From Microbacterium sp. (GTDB lineage: Bacteria > Actinomycetota > Actinomycetes > Actinomycetales > Microbacteriaceae): DNA of 32,072 bases. The notes beneath the pieces were generated by a model, which was not told the DNA's origin, ran no database searches, and worked only from the letters and a program-made list of their open reading frames with translations. The stretch covers positions 1 through 32,072 of the forward strand of contig NZTV01000059.1 of the NCBI GenBank assembly GCA_002703245.1, given 5' to 3'. Position numbers and translations under genes: made by a program. Position 1 is the stretch's first letter; every line of letters begins with the position of its first letter. Below are positions 4,597 to 14,597 of the stretch, in pieces.

Positions 4597-7512
4597 TCAG
4601 GCGCGACGCGCGCGACGCGCGACCAGCAACACGAGACCACCGGCCCCGAGCAGACCCGCGGCGATCGGGATCAGCCAGGCACCGTCGTAGCCGGTGGTGG
4701 CCAGTCCGGCGGTCGAACCGGCCGCCGTCACCTCGAGGTCGGCGAACACGCTGCCATCGCTCGTGCGCACCTCGATCTCGTGCGAGCCGGGCTCGGTGTC
4801 GGCCGGAATGGTGACCGTGATGCTCACCGACTCGTCATCCGCGACCACCGTCGTCAGCTGAACCGGGTCGGAGTGCAGCCACACCTCGACCGACTCGCCG
4901 GCCTCCAGCCCGGAAGCCTCGACCGTGAGCTCGCCACCGACCTGCACGGTCGACGCCGACAGCGACGACTCGAGCTCCGTGGTCGGCTCCGTCGGCTCCG
5001 TGGGATCCGGGGTCGGTGTCGGGTCCGGGGTGGGGGTCGGGTCCGGCGTCGGGGTCGGCGTGGGCGTCGGCTGCGGTGAACCGTCGTAGGCCAACGCCGG
5101 CGCGGTGGTCACGACCTGCTGACCCTGCGTCTGCTGCTCCAGCGCGTAGCCCATGCCGAGCACCTCGGCATCCGACCACGGCGTGCCCATCAGCTGCATG
5201 GCGATCGAGTAGCCGTGACCGTTGGTCCCGACCGGCACGACGACCGTCGGAAGGCCGACGTTCGAGGTCAGCACGCCCGTGGAACGGTCGGCGCTGTGCC
5301 GTGTGGTGTTGCCGTCGTTGTTGTACATGTCGCTGAGGAACCCGGCGTAGACGATCACGTCGACATCCGACGCGGCCATCCAATCCGAGATGCGCTGCTT
5401 GTACTCATCGCGGTAAGCCAGCCACGCATCGACCTCTTCCTCGGTCATCCGCTCGTCGTCGCGCTCGCGCTGGTTGTAGGGCAGCACGCGCGGGTCGGCG
5501 CGGAGCTCGTTGCCATCGGCGAACGGGAACAGCCCGTTCTGCTCCTCGATGTAGCGCGCCCATCCCTCGGCCGTGCGGCTTCCGCCGACCGAATCCGGAC
5601 GGCTCGGCACATCGCTCATCTCGACCATCGTCGCGCCGGCGGCCTCGAGCTGCGAGAACTGCGCCATCACCGCGGCACCGGTGTCGTCGTCGGCGTAGGC
5701 GGAGACGAACGAGTCGGGCAGGTAGCCCACCCGCTTGCCCTGCAACGCGTCGGCATCGAGTGACGCGGTCCAGTCCTCCGGCCGGTGCTCATCCGCTTCT
5801 GCGGTGAGGATGTCGGCCGGGTCGGTGCCGGTCGTCGCGTTCAGCAGGTAGGCCAGGTCGGTGACGGTGCGCGCGATCGGACCGGCGTAGTCCTGACCCC
5901 ACGACAGGGGGATCACCCCGGCGACGCTGGCCATGCCATCGGTGCCGCGGAACGTGGTCAGACTCGAACCGACCGTCGGTGCGTACAGCGACACCCCGGT
6001 CTGGGTGCCCAGTGATCCGGCCGCGAGGCTCGCGGCGACCGAGACGGCCGAGCCGCCCGAGGAGCCGAACGAGGTCTTCGACGGGTAGAGCGCGTTCCAC
6101 ACCTGGCCCCAGCCGCTTTCGCTCCGGCTGCCGGACGACGCGAACTCCGACAGGTTCGCCTTGCCGATGATGATGGCGCCCGCTTCGCGGAGCTGCTCGA
6201 CCTGGTAGGCGTCGTGGTCGGGCTGGTAGCCCTCGAGCGCGAGCGTGCCACCGGTGGTGGGCATGTCGTAGGTGTCGAAGAGATCCTTCACCGCGATCGG
6301 AATCCCCAGCAGCTCACCGGTGACGCCCTCGGCGCGCAGCGCATCGGCCGCGCGGGCCTGCTCCAGTGCGTTCTCCGCGACGGTGATGAAGGAGTTGTAG
6401 CCGAACTGTCCCTCGTCATACACGCGGATGCGGTCGAGGTAGGCCTGCACGATCTGCTCGGAGGTCACCGCGCCCGACTCCATGTCGGCCTGCAGTTCGG
6501 CGATGGTCTTGTTGACCACGTCGTAGGACGAGCTGGTCGTGGCCGCCGGAGCGGTCGGGACCTCCGGGATGCCCAGCATCACCGGCGCGCCACACTCCGG
6601 GGCCTCCTCGAGGGAGGAAAGGTCCCAGTTCGTGATCGTGCAGATCTCGTCGGTGGTCAGACCCTCGAGGTCGGGGGTCGCCGCCAGGTCGGCGAGGATC
6701 GCGCTGAGCGCATCCTGCGACCCCTCCGCATCGTCGCCGACGGCGATGAACCGCGCCAACGACTGCGTCTCACCCGGGTCGATCGTGAGGGTGTTGATGT
6801 AGCCGTTGTAGTTGGCTTCGTGCCCCGTCGTGGACATCGGCGTGGAGAACGGGTCGCGCTCCTGGTTGCCGGTTCCGACCATGGCGCCTTCGAAAGGTGC
6901 GGGCGAGCCGAGGGTGACGCCGATCGGGCGCACATCGCTCTCGGTGGTCGCCGAGAGCGTCCAGGAGTCCTCGGGGGTGACCATGGCGTCGCCGGAGGAG
7001 GTCAGCTTGATGAGGCTCTGCTCCTCCTCGGTGCCGTAGCCGAGCGCGCCACCGAAGCTCACATCGACCGTGATCGGCGCGTCGGTGGTGTTCGTGAACG
7101 TGTCGAAATAGCGCGCCGTGCTGTCGGCGACATCGACGGAGATCTCCCGGGTGATCGCCACGCCACCCAGGTCGACGGACGCCGTCGACTCGTATTCGCT
7201 CGTGCCGTCGAAGGTCAGCCCGAACCCGCGCATCATCTCGCCGTTGAACCGCGGCTCAGGCGTGGTCGACACCTGCACGAAGATGTTGCCGAAGCCGTCG
7301 ACCTCGGAGTCGCTGACGGCGCGGAGGCTGCCGGTGTCGAGCCCGGGCGGTGCCGCATCGTGCACCTGCCATTCGGCTTCGTTGTCGGTGGTGACCGTCG
7401 TCACCGCGCTGGCACCGAGGGCCGGTGCGACACATCCTGCGGTCACGACCGCGGCGATCGCCGATGCGCCGAACAGGCGCAGATGTCGTTTCCGGCGTTG
7501 GGGCTCGTTCAT
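4597..7512 (-). CDS. Secreted, sortase-anchored amidase-signature enzyme
   Basis: A 971-residue surface protein. Order: basic N-terminus and signal peptide (to about residue 35); a beta-rich region of unknown function (about 40-315); an amidase-signature domain (about 330-830) with the Lys-cisSer-Ser triad visible as AVKD (Lys near 409), FGSSGGSA (near 484) and a nucleophile Ser in GTQTGVS (near 507). Then come a Pro-Thr/Asp wall-spanning linker, an Ig-like segment, LATTG (937-941), a hydrophobic helix and an RRARRA tail. LAxTG is the class E sortase signal of high-GC actinobacteria, so the enzyme should be covalently attached to peptidoglycan. The family hydrolyses amides; the substrate outside the cell is unknown. 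The nucleophile motif departs from the usual GTDTGGS. ATG 7512 is chosen because GGAGAG is correctly spaced; GTG 7518 is too close. Confidence 0.88.
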   Translation of the reverse strand: MNEPQRRKRHLRLFGASAIAAVVTAGCVAPALGASAVTTVTTDNEAEWQVHDAAPPGLDTGSLRAVSDSEVDGFGNIFVQVSTTPEPRFNGEMMRGFGLTFDGTSEYESTASVDLGGVAITREISVDVADSTARYFDTFTNTTDAPITVDVSFGGALGYGTEEEQSLIKLTSSGDAMVTPEDSWTLSATTESDVRPIGVTLGSPAPFEGAMVGTGNQERDPFSTPMSTTGHEANYNGYINTLTIDPGETQSLARFIAVGDDAEGSQDALSAILADLAATPDLEGLTTDEICTITNWDLSSLEEAPECGAPVMLGIPEVPTAPAATTSSSYDVVNKTIAELQADMESGAVTSEQIVQAYLDRIRVYDEGQFGYNSFITVAENALEQARAADALRAEGVTGELLGIPIAVKDLFDTYDMPTTGGTLALEGYQPDHDAYQVEQLREAGAIIIGKANLSEFASSGSRSESGWGQVWNALYPSKTSFGSSGGSAVSVAASLAAGSLGTQTGVSLYAPTVGSSLTTFRGTDGMASVAGVIPLSWGQDYAGPIARTVTDLAYLLNATTGTDPADILTAEADEHRPEDWTASLDADALQGKRVGYLPDSFVSAYADDDTGAAVMAQFSQLEAAGATMVEMSDVPSRPDSVGGSRTAEGWARYIEEQNGLFPFADGNELRADPRVLPYNQRERDDERMTEEEVDAWLAYRDEYKQRISDWMAASDVDVIVYAGFLSDMYNNDGNTTRHSADRSTGVLTSNVGLPTVVVPVGTNGHGYSIAMQLMGTPWSDAEVLGMGYALEQQTQGQQVVTTAPALAYDGSPQPTPTPTPTPDPTPTPDPTPTPDPTEPTEPTTELESSLSASTVQVGGELTVEASGLEAGESVEVWLHSDPVQLTTVVADDESVSITVTIPADTEPGSHEIEVRTSDGSVFADLEVTAAGSTAGLATTGYDGAWLIPIAAGLLGAGGLVLLVARRARRA
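5003..5073 (-). repeat. Pro-Thr/Asp tandem linker repeats in the amidase gene
   Basis: A tandem run of near-identical short units on the minus strand encodes PTPTPTPTPDPTPTPDPTPT followed by further PT/EPT units. Such Pro-Thr stretches span the cell wall between an exported catalytic domain and its anchor. The repeats may vary in copy number between strains. Confidence 0.7.
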
Positions 7513-7743
7513 TGACACTCTCCAGGTGTGCGGGATGCGGCCGAGTGGTCGCGGCGGCGACGTTAGTGATGGGATATTTCACAAGCGTTGCCTAGGGAAG
7601 TCCTAGAGAAAACACAAGAAAAGCGCAAGAGCGTGCAAAGTGCTCGTCGAGGAAGCGCGGAGCGGGAGCGCAACCCCTCCTGTCGGCGCGCACAGGGCTG
7701 ACAAGCTGGCCGGGTCCGACGTCACCGCACCCGGGAGGACCCC
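7513..7743. other. Divergent promoter region (amidase / HAD phosphatase)
   Basis: These 231 bases hold the 5' regions of two divergent genes and no gene of their own. The part at 7570-7635 is unusually A-rich for the window. It includes the palindrome CTAGGGAAGTCCTAG (7592-7606), a possible operator. TATCCC and TAACGT on the minus strand are candidate -10 elements for the amidase gene, but I cannot pair either with a convincing -35. Confidence 0.3.
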
Positions 7744-8406: not shown

Positions 8407-8460
8407 GGTCACCGACGGCAACCGGTCGCCATGCGGGGGTCGTCGGCGCGACACGAGTGC

Positions 8461-8480
8461 GGCCGGGGGAGGCGCCGGCC
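8461..8480. terminator. Possible terminator between convergent genes
   Basis: GGCCGG and CCGGCC form a 6-bp stem with an 8-base loop in the short gap between the convergent HAD gene and the gene ending at 8488. It is GC-rich but short, hence the low confidence. Confidence 0.3.
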
Positions 8481-8487
8481 GGCGGCG

Positions 8488-9025
<538 letters not shown>

Positions 9026-9031
9026 AGCGGC

Positions 9032-9037
9032 AGGCTA
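9032..9037 (-). promoter_or_regulatory. -10 hexamer before the GTG at 9025
   Basis: On the minus strand TAGCCT (TANNNT) ends 6 bases before the GTG start, with no ribosome binding site between. This supports a leaderless message and the choice of the GTG at 9025. Confidence 0.4.
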
Positions 9038-9304
9038 ACCCGCCCGACAGTGCGGTGGGGTCGATCCGTCGCATCCGCGCCGCCCGCCGCGCGTGAGCGT
9101 CGCGCATTAGCGACCAGGGTCGGTGTGCTCGGGCGGCCGACGGGGGAGGGCGGCACGTCTTCCCCCTCGAATCGACGATAAGAATGCGAATTCTGACGCC
9201 CCTGAAAGAAACCGCTCTCAAATCGTTACGGACTTTGTCAAGGCCATAGGTTGCGCCGTTCCCGTGGTGCAGAGTAAGGGAACCGCACAACAAAGGGGGT
9301 CTCT

Positions 9305-9406
9305 ATGACGACAGACGAAAGCACCCACGTGGCCGAGGCTACGTCGGAGAACGAAGACACATCCTTCGGTCGCTGGCTTCACGTCATCAACCACGGGGCC
9401 AAGTAA
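9305..9406 (+). CDS. Orphan 33-residue peptide
   Basis: A small gene encoding MTTDESTHVAEATSENEDTS followed by FGRWLHVINHGAK. I do not recognise the family. The N-terminal 20 residues are acidic and Ser/Thr-rich; the last 13 are aromatic/basic with Trp and two His. Support for a real gene is strong for its size. AAAGGGGGT, one base off the ideal anti-16S sequence, lies at correct spacing; the ORF is bounded by about 280 bases of non-coding leader; and a near-perfect 17-bp terminator hairpin follows at once. It is not adjacent to modification or export genes that would mark it as a known ribosomal-peptide precursor. It is predicted to be a separately transcribed, well-translated small protein. 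Confidence 0.65.
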   Translation: MTTDESTHVAEATSENEDTSFGRWLHVINHGAK

Positions 9407-9420
9407 GCGTCCACCGCTTA
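9404..9420 (+). other. Small inverted repeat at the peptide stop codon
   Basis: TAAGCG and CGCTTA form a perfect 6-bp stem with a 5-base loop, starting on the stop codon of the 33-residue peptide gene and 8 bases before the main terminator. It could stabilise the 3' end of the message. Confidence 0.35.
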
Positions 9421-9428
9421 CGTGCGAA

Positions 9429-9467
9429 GAACCCTCCCGATCCGGCTCCCCCGGAACGGGAGGGTTC
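9429..9467 (+). terminator. Strong terminator after the orphan peptide gene
   Basis: GAACCCTCCCG pairs perfectly with CGGGAGGGTTC (11 bp). After one A-A mismatch the stem continues with TCCGG/CCGGA around a CTCCC loop. It lies 22 bases after the peptide stop codon and insulates the downstream lipoprotein gene. Confidence 0.8.
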
Positions 9468-9535
9468 CTCATGTGCGCGGGCGGTGTCCCTCGCGCCGAT
9501 GTGCGAGGGTGGGGGCAGCGTCTGGAAGGGGAAAC

Positions 9536-9958
9536 GTGCCACGCATACCCCCGCGTATCGCGCCGCTCGCCCTCTGCGCGGCGGCGTTGTCGTGCCTCAC
9601 CGGGTGCGCGGGAGGCGCCGCCGTCTACTCCGACCTCATGGCGCCGCCGAGCGACGCAGACGAGATCCCGGACTTCGTCGAGGAGCCCGCTGCGCTGCTG
9701 GAGGTCGAGTCCGCCCGACATGTCGCGACCGACCTCGGAAACGACCTCTGGATCGCCGAGGGCACCGAGCCCGACACCGTGTGCGTGCTTGCGGTGAACG
9801 ACGAAGACCAGAACTGGGTCATCGGCTGCACACTGTGGGGTTCGCCGCTGGGAATCGGCGCCCCGGGCTCGGGGACCGGATACATCCTCCGCCCCGACTC
9901 GGGGAGTGGCAACGACGGTGTCGCCATCTCGGTGAACATCGTCCGCGGCCGCATGTAA
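9536..9958 (+). CDS. Putative lipoprotein of unknown function
   Basis: A 140-residue exported lipoprotein. The N-terminus has basic residues, a hydrophobic stretch and the lipobox LTGC (Cys 24), after which the mature protein is acidic and Pro/Asp-rich. One further Cys pair in the mature part (CVLAVNDEDQNWVIGC) may form a disulfide. The segment around NWVIGCTLWGSPLGIG is the only distinctive element; I recognise no named family. The GTG at 9536 is chosen because it follows GGAAGGGG at correct spacing and opens directly into the signal peptide. It is flanked by terminators on both sides and is probably monocistronic. Confidence 0.75.
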   Translation: MPRIPPRIAPLALCAAALSCLTGCAGGAAVYSDLMAPPSDADEIPDFVEEPAALLEVESARHVATDLGNDLWIAEGTEPDTVCVLAVNDEDQNWVIGCTLWGSPLGIGAPGSGTGYILRPDSGSGNDGVAISVNIVRGRM

Positions 9959-9972
9959 GGGGCCGGCCGCAC

Positions 9973-9997
9973 GCGTCCCCCGGGGTCGGTGGGACGC
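9973..9997 (+). terminator. Probable terminator before the thiamine leader
   Basis: GCGTCCC and GGGACGC form a 7-bp stem with an 11-base loop, 15 bases after the lipoprotein stop and just upstream of the thi promoter. Confidence 0.45.
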
Positions 9998-10000
9998 CGC

Positions 10001-10006
10001 TAGGGT
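10001..10006 (+). promoter_or_regulatory. -10 hexamer for the thi leader
   Basis: TAGGGT fits TANNNT and sits about 7 bases before the first riboswitch bases, so the transcript would start near 10013. No clear -35 is seen. Confidence 0.4.
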
Positions 10007-10012
10007 GGGGTG

Positions 10013-10091
10013 CAGTGACACGGGGTGCGCGTACGCGCTGAGAACACACCCGTCGAACCTGATCTAGTTCGTACTAGCGAAGGGATGTCGC
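10013..10091 (+). promoter_or_regulatory. TPP riboswitch (THI element)
   Basis: The leader contains the conserved THI-box blocks in order: ACGGGGTGC (10020-10028), GCTGAGAACACACCC (10037-10051), GAACCTGATCTAGTTC (10055-10070), then the closing AGCGAAGGGA (10076-10085). The 5' TGACA (10016-10020) can pair with TGTCG (10086-10090) to form helix P1. The purine-rich AAGGGA near the 3' edge is also the only Shine-Dalgarno for thiM (ATG 10094). Thiamine pyrophosphate binding should therefore hide the ribosome binding site directly and repress translation of the salvage operon. No rho-independent terminator lies between the element and the gene. Confidence 0.93.
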
Positions 10092-10093
10092 GA

Positions 10094-10936
10094 ATGACTG
10101 TTCGCACGTCTGCGTCCGTATCCACCCTCGACGGCGACGTCTCGGCGTTCGCCTGCACGAGCGCCGACCTGCTTCAGCGGGTCCGCGCATCCGAACCCCT
10201 GGTGCAGTGCATCACCAACGCGGTGGTCACCGGGTTCACCGCCAACGTGCTCCTGGCCACCGGCGCTTCGCCGGCGATGTGCGACATCCCGGACGAAGCC
10301 GGAGTGCTCGCCGGCGTCGCCGGTGGCGTGCTCGTGAACCTCGGGACCCCCACCGCCGAACAGCGACAGGCCGCACTCGAAGCGGTCGAGGCCGCCACGC
10401 GGACCGAGACACCGTGGGTGCTGGACCCCGTCGCGGTCGGCGTGCTCCCGGTGCGCACCGAGCTGGCCGCCCGTCTGCGCGACGCCGCGCCGACGATCAT
10501 CCGCGGAAACGCCAGCGAGATCCTCGCCCTCGCCGGCGCGGGGACCGGGGGCAAGGGCGTCGACTCGACGGACTCCGCGGAGGACGCCGCCGAGGTCGCC
10601 CGCGAGCTCGCCACCCGCACCGGTGCCGTCGTCGCCGTGAGCGGGCCGATCGACCTCATCACCGACGGCGCCCGCACCGTCCGCGTCGCCAACGGGCACG
10701 TGTGGCTGACCGCCGTCACCGGCGGCGGATGCGCACTCGGTGCCCTCATGGCCGCATTCGCCTCGACGACCGACGACGCGCTCGCCGCCGCCGTGGCGGC
10801 GACCCTGGCCCACACGGTCGCCGCCGAAGATGCCGCGGCAACGAGCACCGGGCCCGGTTCGTTCGCGGTGGCCCTGCTGGATGCGTTGCACACCCTCACG
10901 CCCGAGCAGCTCGAGCAGCGGGCGAAACTGTCGTGA
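10094..10936 (+). CDS. thiM: Hydroxyethylthiazole kinase
   Basis: A 280-residue kinase that phosphorylates 4-methyl-5-(2-hydroxyethyl)thiazole with ATP, the entry point for salvaged thiazole in thiamine synthesis. It is recognisable from [20 protein letters not shown] near the N-terminus, the [13 protein letters not shown] segment, LDPVAVG, and the nucleotide/active-site loop [11 protein letters not shown] with its conserved Cys (the common form is VTGTGC). I take the ATG at 10094, spaced 8 bases from AAGGGA; the in-frame ATG at 10085 lies inside the riboswitch. The stop codon overlaps the thiE start as GTGA, indicating translational coupling. Confidence 0.95.
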
Positions 10937-11613
10937 ACGGCGCCACCACCACAGTCGACCTGCGCACCTACCTCGTCACCGACTCCGCGCTCAGCGGCGA
11001 CCGCGGTGTGCTCGCCGTGATCGCGGGCGCCGTCGCGGGAGGGGCGGGAATCGTGCAGATCCGCGAGAAGAACGCCCCCACTCGCGACGTGTTCGACCTC
11101 GTCCTCCGTGCCGCACAGATCACCGCCGGGCGTGCCGCACTGGTCGTCGACGATCGCGTCGACGTCTTCCTGGCGGCCCGGGCCGCCGGCGCCGCCGTCC
11201 ATGGCGTACACGTCGGCCAGTCCGACCTCCCCGTCGCGGCCGTGCGCGACCTCGTCGGCACCCACAACCCCGACGGAACCCGCGCGCTCGTCGGGCTGAC
11301 CGCGAACACGCCCGCGCACCTCGACGCCGTCGCCGCCCACCCGCCGGGGACGGTCGACTACCTGGGGGTGGGGGTCATCCGCGCCACGGCGACCAAGCCC
11401 GACCACCCCGCACCGCTCGGCGTCGACGGCTTCGCCGCGCTCGCCGCCACCGCGCCGGCGCCCTGCGTCGCGATCGGCGGCATCGACCTGCCCGACATCC
11501 CGGCCCTCCGTGCCGCCGGCGCCGCCGGGGCGGCGGTGGTCTCGGCGATCTGCGCCGCGCCCGACCCGGAGGCCGCGACGCGCGGGTTCGCGACCGCCTG
11601 GGGACGGTCGTGA
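10933..11613 (+). CDS. thiE: Thiamine-phosphate synthase
   Basis: A 226-residue TIM-barrel enzyme that joins HMP pyrophosphate and thiazole phosphate to form thiamine phosphate. Motifs visible: VQIREKNA (pyrophosphate-binding strand), [31 protein letters not shown], the [13 protein letters not shown] loop (the family's GPxxxTxTK) and AIGGID. It starts with GTG at 10933, overlapping the thiM stop by four bases, and ends with the same GTGA overlap into the next gene. This makes a tightly coupled three-gene operon under the TPP riboswitch. Confidence 0.95.
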
Positions 11614-13151
11614 CCGCCGGACGGAGGGTCGTCCCCCGCGTGCTCAGCATCGCCGGCAGCGACCCGAGCGGCGGGGCGGGCATCCACGCCGACCTCAAGT
11701 CCATCGGCGCCAACGGTGGTTACGGCATGGCCGTGGTCACCGCCCTCACGGCCCAGAACACACGGGGCGTGACCGACGTGCACGTGCCGCCGGTGGCGTT
11801 CCTTCGCGGACAGCTCGACACCATCGCCGCAGACATCACGATCGACGCGGTCAAGATCGGCATGCTCGGCACCACGGCCGTCATCGACGAAGTCGCCGGA
11901 TGGCTGCGCGCACATCCCGTCCCGGTCGTCGTGCTCGACCCCGTCATGATCGCCACCAGCGGCGACCGGTTGCTGGACGCCGACGCCGAAGACGCGTTGC
12001 GCCGGATGCTGCCCCTTGCCGACGCCGTGACCCCGAACATCCCCGAACTCGCCGTCATCGCGGGGGAGCCGCGTGCCGAGGGGTGGACCGACGCACTCGC
12101 GCAGGCGCAGCGCGTCGCCGCACGCGACGGCGTCGTGGTGATCGTCAAGGGCGGACACCTCACCGGCGCCGAAGCGCCCGACGGGGTCGTCACCGCCGAC
12201 GGCGTCTTGACCGAGATCGCGGGGGAGCGGATCGTCACGACATCCACCCACGGAACCGGATGCTCCCTGTCCAGCGCCCTGGCCACCCGATACGCCGCGA
12301 CCGGCGATTGGGCGGAGGCTCTGCGCCAGACCAAACGCTGGCTCCACGCGGCCATCGACGCGGGTGCCGCGCTGGAGGTCGGCGAGGGGCACGGTCCCGT
12401 CGACCACTTCGTGGCGCTCCGCGACCGTGCGCCGCACATCGCCGCGGACGAGCCGGCAGGCTCGGTCGGCGACCCGGGCTCGTGGGGCGACGGCGTGTTC
12501 ACCGCCGCCGCGTGGGCGCGCACGCGTGCCGTGCGTGAGGCGATCGACGACGTGTGGTTCGTGCGGCAACTCGCCGACGGTGACCTTCCCGCCGAGGACT
12601 TCGCGCACTATCTGCGCCAGGACGCGCGCTACTTGCGCGACTACGCCCGCGTGCTCGCACGGGCCAGCGCCCTCGCCCCGACGCGCGACGCGCAGGCGTT
12701 CTGGGGGGATGCCGCACACGGCTCCCTCGTGGCCGAGCTCGACCTCCACACCACGTGGCTCGGAGGTGAACCCGATGTCGACCCGTCCGCGGCGTGTCGC
12801 GCCTATCTCGAACACCTCGCCGCGTCGGCCGACCGGTACGAGACCCTCGTGGCGGCACTGTTGCCGTGCTTCTGGATCTACATCGACATCGGGCGGCGGT
12901 TGGCGCCTCGCGCGACGACGGGGCATCCGTACCGCGAGTGGCTGCAGACCTACAGTGCCCCGGAGTTCGCCGCCGCGACACGCACCGCCATCGGGTACGT
13001 CGACGACGCCGCCGGCGCCGCCGACAGCGAGACTCGGGAGCGGATGGCGGTCGCCTTCGACACGGCCGCCGCGTTCGAATACGCCTTCCTCGCCCAGCGC
13101 GCCGACGACACCGGCGTGCGTACCCCGCCCGTGCCGGTCGCCGACCGATGA
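11610..13151 (+). CDS. thiD: HMP/HMP-P kinase fused to a TenA-like domain
   Basis: A 513-residue two-domain protein. Residues about 8-270 are ThiD: SIAGSDPSGGAGIHADLKSI at the start, GMLGT, VLDPVMIATSG and the THGTGCSLSSAL anion-hole motif. This kinase makes HMP phosphate and pyrophosphate. Residues about 295-505 are a TenA/thiaminase-II helical domain, with FWGDAAHGSLVAELDLH and ALLPCFWIYIDIG, whose Cys sits where TenA proteins carry their active-site Cys. TenA hydrolyses aminopyrimidine breakdown products to recover HMP. The fusion links recovery of HMP to its phosphorylation. Similar ThiD-TenA fusions are known in actinobacteria and yeast. With no thiC or thiG nearby, the operon is a salvage unit. 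The GTG at 11610 overlaps the thiE stop. Confidence 0.92.
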   Translation: MTAGRRVVPRVLSIAGSDPSGGAGIHADLKSIGANGGYGMAVVTALTAQNTRGVTDVHVPPVAFLRGQLDTIAADITIDAVKIGMLGTTAVIDEVAGWLRAHPVPVVVLDPVMIATSGDRLLDADAEDALRRMLPLADAVTPNIPELAVIAGEPRAEGWTDALAQAQRVAARDGVVVIVKGGHLTGAEAPDGVVTADGVLTEIAGERIVTTSTHGTGCSLSSALATRYAATGDWAEALRQTKRWLHAAIDAGAALEVGEGHGPVDHFVALRDRAPHIAADEPAGSVGDPGSWGDGVFTAAAWARTRAVREAIDDVWFVRQLADGDLPAEDFAHYLRQDARYLRDYARVLARASALAPTRDAQAFWGDAAHGSLVAELDLHTTWLGGEPDVDPSAACRAYLEHLAASADRYETLVAALLPCFWIYIDIGRRLAPRATTGHPYREWLQTYSAPEFAAATRTAIGYVDDAAGAADSETRERMAVAFDTAAAFEYAFLAQRADDTGVRTPPVPVADR

Positions 13152-13176: not shown

Positions 13177-13764
13177 TCAGCTGCGCGGCCACTCCACGAG
13201 CACGAGGCTCTGCTTCGTGTCGGCGTACTTCACCCAGCCGTCGCCGAACAGGTAGGTCAGGCCGTAGCCCTCGTCATCGGTCGCGACCGTCGTATCGGTG
13301 CTCTCGGTGACGATCACGCCGCGGTCATCGGTCTCGCTGCGCCAACCGGCCGCGACGAGGTCGGCCTGGGCTGCGCTGGACTCCTCGCTCGTGATCGGCG
13401 CCCATCCGAACAGCTGCACGTGGTCGCTGGCGACGGTGAAATCGCCCCACAGGCACTGCACGCCTCCGGCGATCTCGAGGCCGCCGACCCGGAAGGTGCT
13501 CTCTTCGACCGACCACCCCGCCGCCTCGTACTCGGAGATCAGCGAGTCCGGGATGATGCCTTCGCACGTCGGCACGCCGATCGAGACCGGCTCGGGGTCC
13601 TTCGTCGGTTCGGCGGTCACCGTGGGCTCGGGGGTCGTCGCGTTCGGCGAGGGCAGCGCGTCGTCGGTCACGACCGGCTCGGGGGCGGCGCTGCAGGCCG
13701 CGAGGGTCAGCGTCGCGACGATCAGTGCGGTGAGCAGGACGCCGCGGGCGCGGGACAGAGGCAT
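13177..13764 (-). CDS. Putative lipoprotein of unknown function
   Basis: A 195-residue exported lipoprotein with lipobox LAAC (Cys 24), a Pro/Thr/Glu-rich linker (about residues 25-60), and a globular part with two Cys (TCEGIIP and VQCLWGD) that could pair. The CEGIIPDSLI...VQCLWGD pattern recurs in Microbacteriaceae lipoproteins I have seen only as hypothetical proteins. The ATG at 13764 shares its first base with the TGA of the upstream phosphatase gene (TGATG), so the two are co-translated. It converges with the thi operon. Confidence 0.8.
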   Translation of the reverse strand: MPLSRARGVLLTALIVATLTLAACSAAPEPVVTDDALPSPNATTPEPTVTAEPTKDPEPVSIGVPTCEGIIPDSLISEYEAAGWSVEESTFRVGGLEIAGGVQCLWGDFTVASDHVQLFGWAPITSEESSAAQADLVAAGWRSETDDRGVIVTESTDTTVATDDEGYGLTYLFGDGWVKYADTKQSLVLVEWPRS

Positions 13765-14597
13765 CAAGAGGTCTCCGGGAGGCGATCGTGGATGAGGTCG
13801 AGGAACGACTGGTGCAGGCGCCCGTTGGTGGCCAGCGACGACAGGGAATCGAGGTCGTCGCCGCCGTCGATGTCGGTGAAAGTTCCGCCTGCCTCGCGGA
13901 TGATGGGGATGAGTGCGGCGATGTCATAGCGCTTCACGTCGAACTCGGCGACGAACTCCAGCCGGCCCTCCGCGAGCAGCATGTAGGGCCACGCGTCGCC
14001 GTAGCCGCGGTCGCGCCACACGGCGCCGGTCACACGTTCGAGGGCGTCCAGGCGGCCGTAGTCGCGCCACTGCCCGATGGACTGGAAGCTCACGCTCGCA
14101 TCGGCGACGTCGTCGACATCCGACACTCGGATGCGGCGGTCGCCCGCCGGGGTGTTCGTCCAGGCACCGTGCCCGGACGCACCCCACCAGCGCCGGCCGA
14201 GCCCGGGCTGGGCCACCACGCCGACCTGTGGCACGCCGTCGACGGCGAGGGCGATGAGGGTCGACCACATCGGGATGCCCTTGAGGTAGTTCGCGGTGCC
14301 GTCGATCGGGTCGATGATCCACTGGCGTGCGCCGTCGCCGGTGACCCCGAACTCCTCGCCGAACACGCCGTCGACGGGACGCTCCGCAGCGAGGATCTCG
14401 CGGATCGCTCGCTCGGTGGCGAGGTCGGCCTCGGTCACGTGCGAGCGGTCGGGCTTGAGCCGGACGTCGAGGTCGGCGGCGTCGAACCGCGCCATCGTGA
14501 CCGCATCGGCCGCATCCGCGATGCGCAACGCGAGATCGAGGTCGGTGCGGTCCGCGCGGGGGAGCTCGGATGGCGTCGAGATGTCGGGGGAAGGCAC
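13764..14597 (-). CDS. hisN: Inositol-monophosphatase-family phosphatase, probably histidinol-phosphatase
   Basis: A 277-residue Mg-dependent phosphatase. Family motifs are clear: SHVTEADLATE, GEEFG (metal-binding Glu), WIIDPIDGTANYLKG (the DPxDGTxN signature) and, near the C-terminus, VKRYDIAALIPIIREAGGTFTDIDG (the WDxAAxxxxxxEAG motif with R-Y in place of the W). In actinobacteria this architecture is the HisN histidinol-phosphate phosphatase of histidine synthesis; other members dephosphorylate inositol or fructose bisphosphate. The GTG at 14597 has a TATCCT -10-like hexamer 7 bases upstream and no good ribosome binding site, suggesting a leaderless start. It is coupled to the lipoprotein gene downstream. 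Confidence 0.85.
   Translation of the reverse strand: MPSPDISTPSELPRADRTDLDLALRIADAADAVTMARFDAADLDVRLKPDRSHVTEADLATERAIREILAAERPVDGVFGEEFGVTGDGARQWIIDPIDGTANYLKGIPMWSTLIALAVDGVPQVGVVAQPGLGRRWWGASGHGAWTNTPAGDRRIRVSDVDDVADASVSFQSIGQWRDYGRLDALERVTGAVWRDRGYGDAWPYMLLAEGRLEFVAEFDVKRYDIAALIPIIREAGGTFTDIDGGDDLDSLSSLATNGRLHQSFLDLIHDRLPETS

Follow-up and report, generated by a model that had tools for sequence, protein, structure and literature searches.

Some bacterial microproteins, Sda and MciZ among them, act through docking on a partner. Other very short gene products, the RiPP precursors, combine a leader, which is normally conserved, with a core, which varies. Here we describe a 33-residue reading frame in a 32,072-nucleotide stretch of Microbacterium sp. 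DNA (subsequently called the window; contig G000:C55, from a genome of 3.03 Mb that is 84% complete). Judged by sequence, it belongs to a microprotein family of the Microbacteriaceae that is defined by a C-terminal FGxWLxxIN segment and is apparently undescribed so far. In layout alone, this family is like Sda and MciZ: its products are tens of residues long, are encoded by a single gene, would form a short helix and carry no export signal. It differs from them in its variable N-terminus, only about the last dozen residues being fixed. With RiPP precursors it shares the size, a soluble N-terminus and a short C-terminal segment.

The gene and its signals are arranged as follows (G589 is a second genome of the window genus, which carries the orthologue):

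9206 to 9304, plus strand: conserved promoter/5'-UTR stretch with AAGAAACCGCTCTCAAA (9206-9222) and TGTCAAGG; G589 has the same letter at 79 of 99 positions (0.80)
9292 to 9300, plus strand: ribosome-binding site AAAGGGGGT, 4 nt 5' of the ATG; same letters in G589
9305 to 9406, plus strand: gene of the 33-residue microprotein, ATG to TAA; orthologue in G589 at L047:9125-9226, and further members
9365 to 9397, plus strand: family core FGRWLHVINHG with the invariant residues; predicted C-terminal helix (residues 20-31)
9403 to 9421, plus strand: small hairpin of 7 bp by folding, with the TAA stop codon within its stem
9429 to 9467, plus strand: strong 3' hairpin of 16 bp with one 1x1 mismatch and no T-run; probable transcript end

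The ORF encodes MTTDESTHVAEATSENEDTSFGRWLHVINHGAK (33 aa). A preliminary description, made from the letters alone, had proposed it as a real gene with a strong translation signal, and its signals do stand out. The two window strands hold 186 frames of 20-60 aa that begin with ATG, and among these it ranks fourth for the Shine-Dalgarno duplex with the 16S tail and second for the folding energy 3' of the stop. The stretch 9400-9480, which holds both hairpins, folds with z = -6.4. The small hairpin on the stop codon had been seen correctly, while the second stem, given there as 17 bp, proved to be one pair shorter and interrupted by its mismatch. As to the claim that the gene has its own terminator, a strong hairpin is indeed present; however, since it lacks a T-run and a consensus scan of 8900-10100 returned neither a terminator nor a sigma-70 promoter, termination at 9429-9467 is only inferred. 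The peptide has zero matches up to E 10 in Pfam, NCBIfam and PHROGs, and no hydrophobic signal or membrane stretch was discernible by eye.

Comparison with G589 shows the gene to be more than a chance frame. When the genus was searched with the DNA, 58 of 366 genomes, our own included, gave matches at E<=0.1, and G589 had the sole strong copy (81% identical, E 9.5e-63). The other 56 matches were short and weak, although one of these genomes, G702, later proved to carry a family member. The product of the G589 orthologue is MTTEESTHVPEVTVESEDTSFGRWLHVINHGAAT. Identity is high in a block at 9206-9470, where it ranges from 67 to 94%, and falls to 41% and 37% in the flanks. The upstream flank at 9028-9180 has 62 of 153 identical positions (0.41), and the stretch 9181-9205 has 14 of 25. 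Within the ORF, the count is 51 of 60 ahead of the motif (0.85), 31 of 33 in the FGRWLHVINHG part (0.94) and six of nine in the last three codons (0.67). Past the stop it is 15 of 21 at 9407-9427, 33 of 43 across the second hairpin (0.77) and 24 of 65 beyond it (0.37). Within the motif codons of this pair, which was itself found by DNA search, first and second positions agree in 22 of 22 cases and third positions in nine of 11. Both 3' hairpins are retained; in either one, a single base pair differs at both of its positions between the two sequences. The gene order around the locus is partly common to both genomes, with a HAD gene upstream and an inositol monophosphatase pair downstream (named from domain matches); the genes in between differ, namely a lipoprotein-like and thiamine-like genes in the window and others in G589, including an LCP-like gene (all named by eye). 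The ORF at 9305-9406 is a self-contained, stand-alone conserved gene unit. The preliminary description had set conservation of the frame in relatives as the point on which the gene would stand or fall; the frame is kept in G589, where the ORF recurs as part of the whole unit. The original claim is confirmed and was understated. Its remark that such a gene is easily missed holds for a small, self-contained gene with strong signals.

The element AAGAAACCGCTCTCAAA at 9206-9222 is the same in G589 and resembles the operator of some regulator. We considered a LacI-type operator and rejected it: the word occurs once in its own genome at up to 2 mismatches, so no regulon can be read from it.

We counted as a family member any short ORF in which F-G-x-(W/Y)-L-x-x-I-N is followed by no more than about 20 residues. 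Such ORFs were found in the window, at six further loci of the window genus and in all 50 genomes read from a second Microbacteriaceae genus, g32. The loci of the window genus came from several searches. A protein search yielded two of 149 genomes, our own and G129 (Microbacterium ureisolvens), which carries two members (L003 and L078); profile searches added the second of these and G702; a later one, with three of 119 genomes at E<=0.02 including our own, added G059 and G044. A profile search at E<=1 matched 130 of 366 genomes, with five members among the matches listed. In total, the six loci are spread over five genomes (G589, G129 twice, G702, G059, G044), and the family appears sporadic in this genus. 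A search across the Microbacteriaceae matched four of 329 genomes (our own, two of g32 and one false). Within g32, by comparison, 54 of 66 genomes match at E<=0.05; 50 of the 54 were read, and the ORF is present in every one. These 50 comprise sets of 30 and 18 genomes and two in which the tryptophan is replaced by tyrosine (FGRYLGLIN). For tabulation, 40 g32 regions were taken, 20 of them from genomes in the set of 30. An order-level search of 159 genomes, whose candidates were scored in part, gave no convincing member outside the Microbacteriaceae. Since in G000 46 of 110 candidates were scored in the order search and 61 of 110 in the window-genus profile search, these absences and the sparse figure for the window genus are lower bounds.

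The pattern FGRWLH..N gave nine matches in the DNA of an 84,980-species collection, where by a hand estimate about a dozen are expected by chance, and only the one in Microbacterium ureisolvens looks real; the pattern demands H where g32 members have G, so they could not be found with it. Among viral contigs, three matches of a first search were copies of one 55-residue frame, and of two from a second search one lay inside a 313-residue frame and one antisense to a 122-residue frame. Further candidates were rejected upon reading: L082 (G199) is antisense to a long carbonic anhydrase-like frame, L007 (Mycobacterium persicum) likewise lies opposite a long frame that resembles an amidohydrolase, L156 (G902, from another family) reads FGQWVHVGF without the I-N, and L080 and L081 are not members. 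A scan with a loosened motif on both strands of 28 loci (L019-L046) and 27 loci (L051-L077) recovered only G702. The window peptide has no tblastn match in phages and plasmids; a g32-like query against plasmids returned 33 records with listed E-values of 4-9. Twenty members gave no NCBIfam match up to E 1 and one Pfam match (E 0.19, one member), which is at chance level. The idea that the gene is the N-terminal remnant of a sugar-transporter permease found no counterpart in any match that we read. Five motif strings were absent from the 5.39 million papers searched, and word searches of the literature gave no title pointing to such a family. A gene present in 54 of 66 genomes of a genus, with a near-invariant nine-residue segment, fits no Pfam or NCBIfam model, and length cut-offs could miss such genes.

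Members are about 31-49 residues long (the start of the G059 member is uncertain, giving 31 or 42). All end in FGxWLxxIN, with W replaced by Y in two; F, G, W/Y, L, I and N are invariant in the members read, and the N-termini differ widely. The conserved part is the GRWLHVINHG segment that the preliminary description had singled out. The acidic first half reported there recurs in five window-genus members (5-9 D/E versus 0-5 K/R) but is not a family trait, given the diversity of N-termini. The comparison of synonymous and non-synonymous change that had been suggested as a check was based on 43 members, whose motif is encoded by 22 different DNA sequences: pN/pS is 0.24 in frame (pS 0.44, pN 0.10) and 3.2 and 1.6 in the other frames, a ratio that is descriptive and carries no P value because the members are related and were selected by the motif. 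On a small scale, the pair of window and G589 points the same way. All four codons are used for the motif glycine. In its reading frame, the FGxWLxxIN motif is thus subject to purifying selection, and we regard it as almost certain that the family consists of real, translated genes.

AlphaFold2, run on the single sequence, predicts one helix at residues 20-31, with pLDDT 85 for residues 21-30, 59-68 elsewhere and a pTM of 0.33. On this model, F21, W24, L25 and I28 would share one helix face. The reading that we prefer, with a probability of about 0.5, is that the microprotein stays inside the cell, is induced under some condition and docks on a conserved partner via its C-terminal helix. The variable hydrophilic N-terminus would be disordered, whereas the last 10-12 residues would form a short amphipathic helix, one face of which presents F, W, L and I. 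Induction would probably come with stress or a change of growth state, and the helix would then dock on a conserved protein as an adaptor or inhibitor. A docking helix would be expected to show just such spaced hydrophobic anchors within a short conserved end, which is why we chose this explanation. The docking step itself is an even bet: it rests on the helix pattern and on conservation, and a helix lying on a membrane surface would look similar. If a partner is found, it would show how these actinobacteria adjust a conserved process with a protein of 30-50 residues, and the family offers a ready test with one short motif, a few anchor residues and one promoter.

The nearest competitor is a membrane-surface or toxin-like peptide, whose amphipathic helix would sit on the inner membrane face and act as a stress-induced growth brake. 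The short helix with its F, W, L and I anchors would suit such a role, as would the single gene and the rigid promoter of g32 described below. However, only about 12 residues are helical and the N-terminus is acidic in members of the window genus, so that we consider this explanation unlikely.

The preliminary description had instead read the peptide as a leader plus core, that is, as the precursor of a modified or secreted signaling peptide. The peptide is short, and its hydrophilic N-terminus leads into a compact C-terminal segment, which does recall this layout. Conservation, however, runs the other way: unlike in RiPP precursors, the presumed core is constant and the presumed leader variable (20 members). 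The absence of a modification or export gene, remarked on from the start, is borne out by a Pfam scan of seven window neighbors, which are a HAD phosphatase, an amidase, a nucleoside hydrolase, an inositol monophosphatase and three without a Pfam match; beside the g32 members, none was recognized by eye either, and the neighbors vary. The window peptide also lacks the database matches that would point to a precursor family. With conservation reversed and no maturation gene recognized next to the family, the leader-plus-core idea is poorly supported and, at this point, improbable; as far as tested, the microprotein is not a typical RiPP precursor.

The surroundings of the gene also bear on whether the ORF is a regulatory leader or attenuator for the next gene. 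A hairpin on the stop codon followed by a second hairpin is suggestive of such a device. The next gene lies on the same strand at 24 of 38 g32 loci, and the members at G129 L078 and G702 L079 abut a downstream gene. At 12 of 38 g32 loci and in G589, however, the next gene is convergent, leaving no co-directional gene directly downstream, and at two of 38 none was seen; the ORF therefore does not, in general, serve as a leader of the gene that follows. The next genes are also varied, and the motif is conserved at the amino-acid level. We thus give the attenuator very little credence. According to gene calls with our own codon-score script and names given by eye, g32 members lie at several differing sites, often 3' of an SDR-like gene; the G129 L003 member follows a HAD-like gene; the G129 L078 member (L078:3691-3840) has ATGA at its end, where it overlaps the start of a gene resembling a PEP-synthase regulator; those of G702 and G059 precede MarR-like genes (L079:6997-7583 and L157:1483-2133); and that of G044 lies between GNAT-like and phosphotransferase-like genes. 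No constant partner gene was found among the neighbors of the members read. Weakest of all is the view that the conserved entity is a small RNA or another element that is not translated, the ORF being there by accident: the hairpins and the 5' region are conserved too and no Rfam family at gathering score covers the stretch, but the in-frame pN/pS and the use of four glycine codons make this explanation scarcely credible.

In g32, a candidate promoter can be discerned. From the 40 regions, 38 members were tabulated, and in each of them GGGAA[TC] stands 55-67 nt 5' of the start; it is followed by a -10-like NYGT[CAT] after exactly 16 nt in 37 and after 18 nt in one, which gives an ECF-like consensus of GGGAAT-N16-SYGTM. 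The tabulation of 18 further g32 members demanded a match to the ribosome-binding site, so that this site is no independent evidence there. The 130 nt 3' of the stops mostly fold strongly, with a median z of -5.2 against plain (not dinucleotide) shuffles; z is below -2 in 27 of 36 members, while in the other nine the fold is not special (two of the 38 being too short). Over both strands of the 40 regions (612 kb), the promoter pattern occurs six extra times, and two of these occurrences belong to the Y-variant members. A strict version (GGGAAT, 17 arbitrary positions, YGTCGAA) was searched in 16 whole genomes and found in 15 of them at 16 places; 15 places are the microprotein promoter and one lies elsewhere (G521). 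The genome without it, G790, has a member with a different -10. With one mismatch allowed, four genomes gave 14 more sites, none of them YGTTGAA; a reversed control pattern gave zero matches in both the strict search (16 genomes) and the one-mismatch search (four genomes). A 5' hairpin RNA element was also considered for g32 and discarded; dyads are present in many leaders, not in all, so a promoter fits better.

Among actinobacterial promoters of the SigH/SigE (ECF) type, those of SigH in Corynebacterium glutamicum follow GGAAT-N18-19-GTT (PMC10012870). Written as GGAAT-N18-GTC/GTA, the g32 promoter agrees with this type in its -35 core and spacing, and often also in the gaa after the -10. 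Unlike that type, it has GTC or GTA as the -10, with GTT in one tabulated member, and its strict pattern marks almost only the microprotein gene. The form GGAAT/C-N18-19-GTT is found neither at the window gene nor in most g32 members. From the sequences it seems fairly probable that the g32 gene has an ECF-type promoter.

In the window genus the picture differs. GGAA[CT]-N17-19-GT within 200 nt is absent at the window gene and at five of the six other loci, so the regulation is not common to the whole family; G129 L078 alone of the seven has GGAAC-N18-GTT, at -64. A tentative extension of the docking reading, which we consider rather doubtful, would be a one-target circuit in g32, in which an alternative sigma factor or activator reads a single promoter and the FGxWLxxIN helix binds and modulates a core machine that the Microbacteriaceae have in common (for example RNA polymerase, a sigma/anti-sigma factor or a protease), the window genus having kept the protein and rewired the promoter.

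Another short word, GTCAAG, lies 5' of the members in the window, G589, G059 and G044 at -68, -68, -70 and -45, that is, at four of seven window-genus loci, with a background of 0.04 per 220 nt. It may be part of the window-genus promoter, a weak lead in that two of the four loci are near-copies.

Some further features of the window were noted in passing. At 10011-13151, a TPP riboswitch stands ahead of frames that by eye resemble thiM, thiE and thiD; this thiamine block lies between the microprotein gene and a minus-strand pair at 13177-14597 and is absent there in G589 (L047). On the minus strand, 8409-9028 holds a membrane-protein-like frame with a (GTCGTT)5.5 repeat at 8524-8556 and a seven-G run near 8617; since the corresponding frame in G589 (L047:5598-5936) is shorter, the tail may have undergone a frame change. 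Also on the minus strand, 4597-7518 encodes a protein of 973 residues, in which an amidase domain spans residues 356-787 and the long flanks are without assignment.
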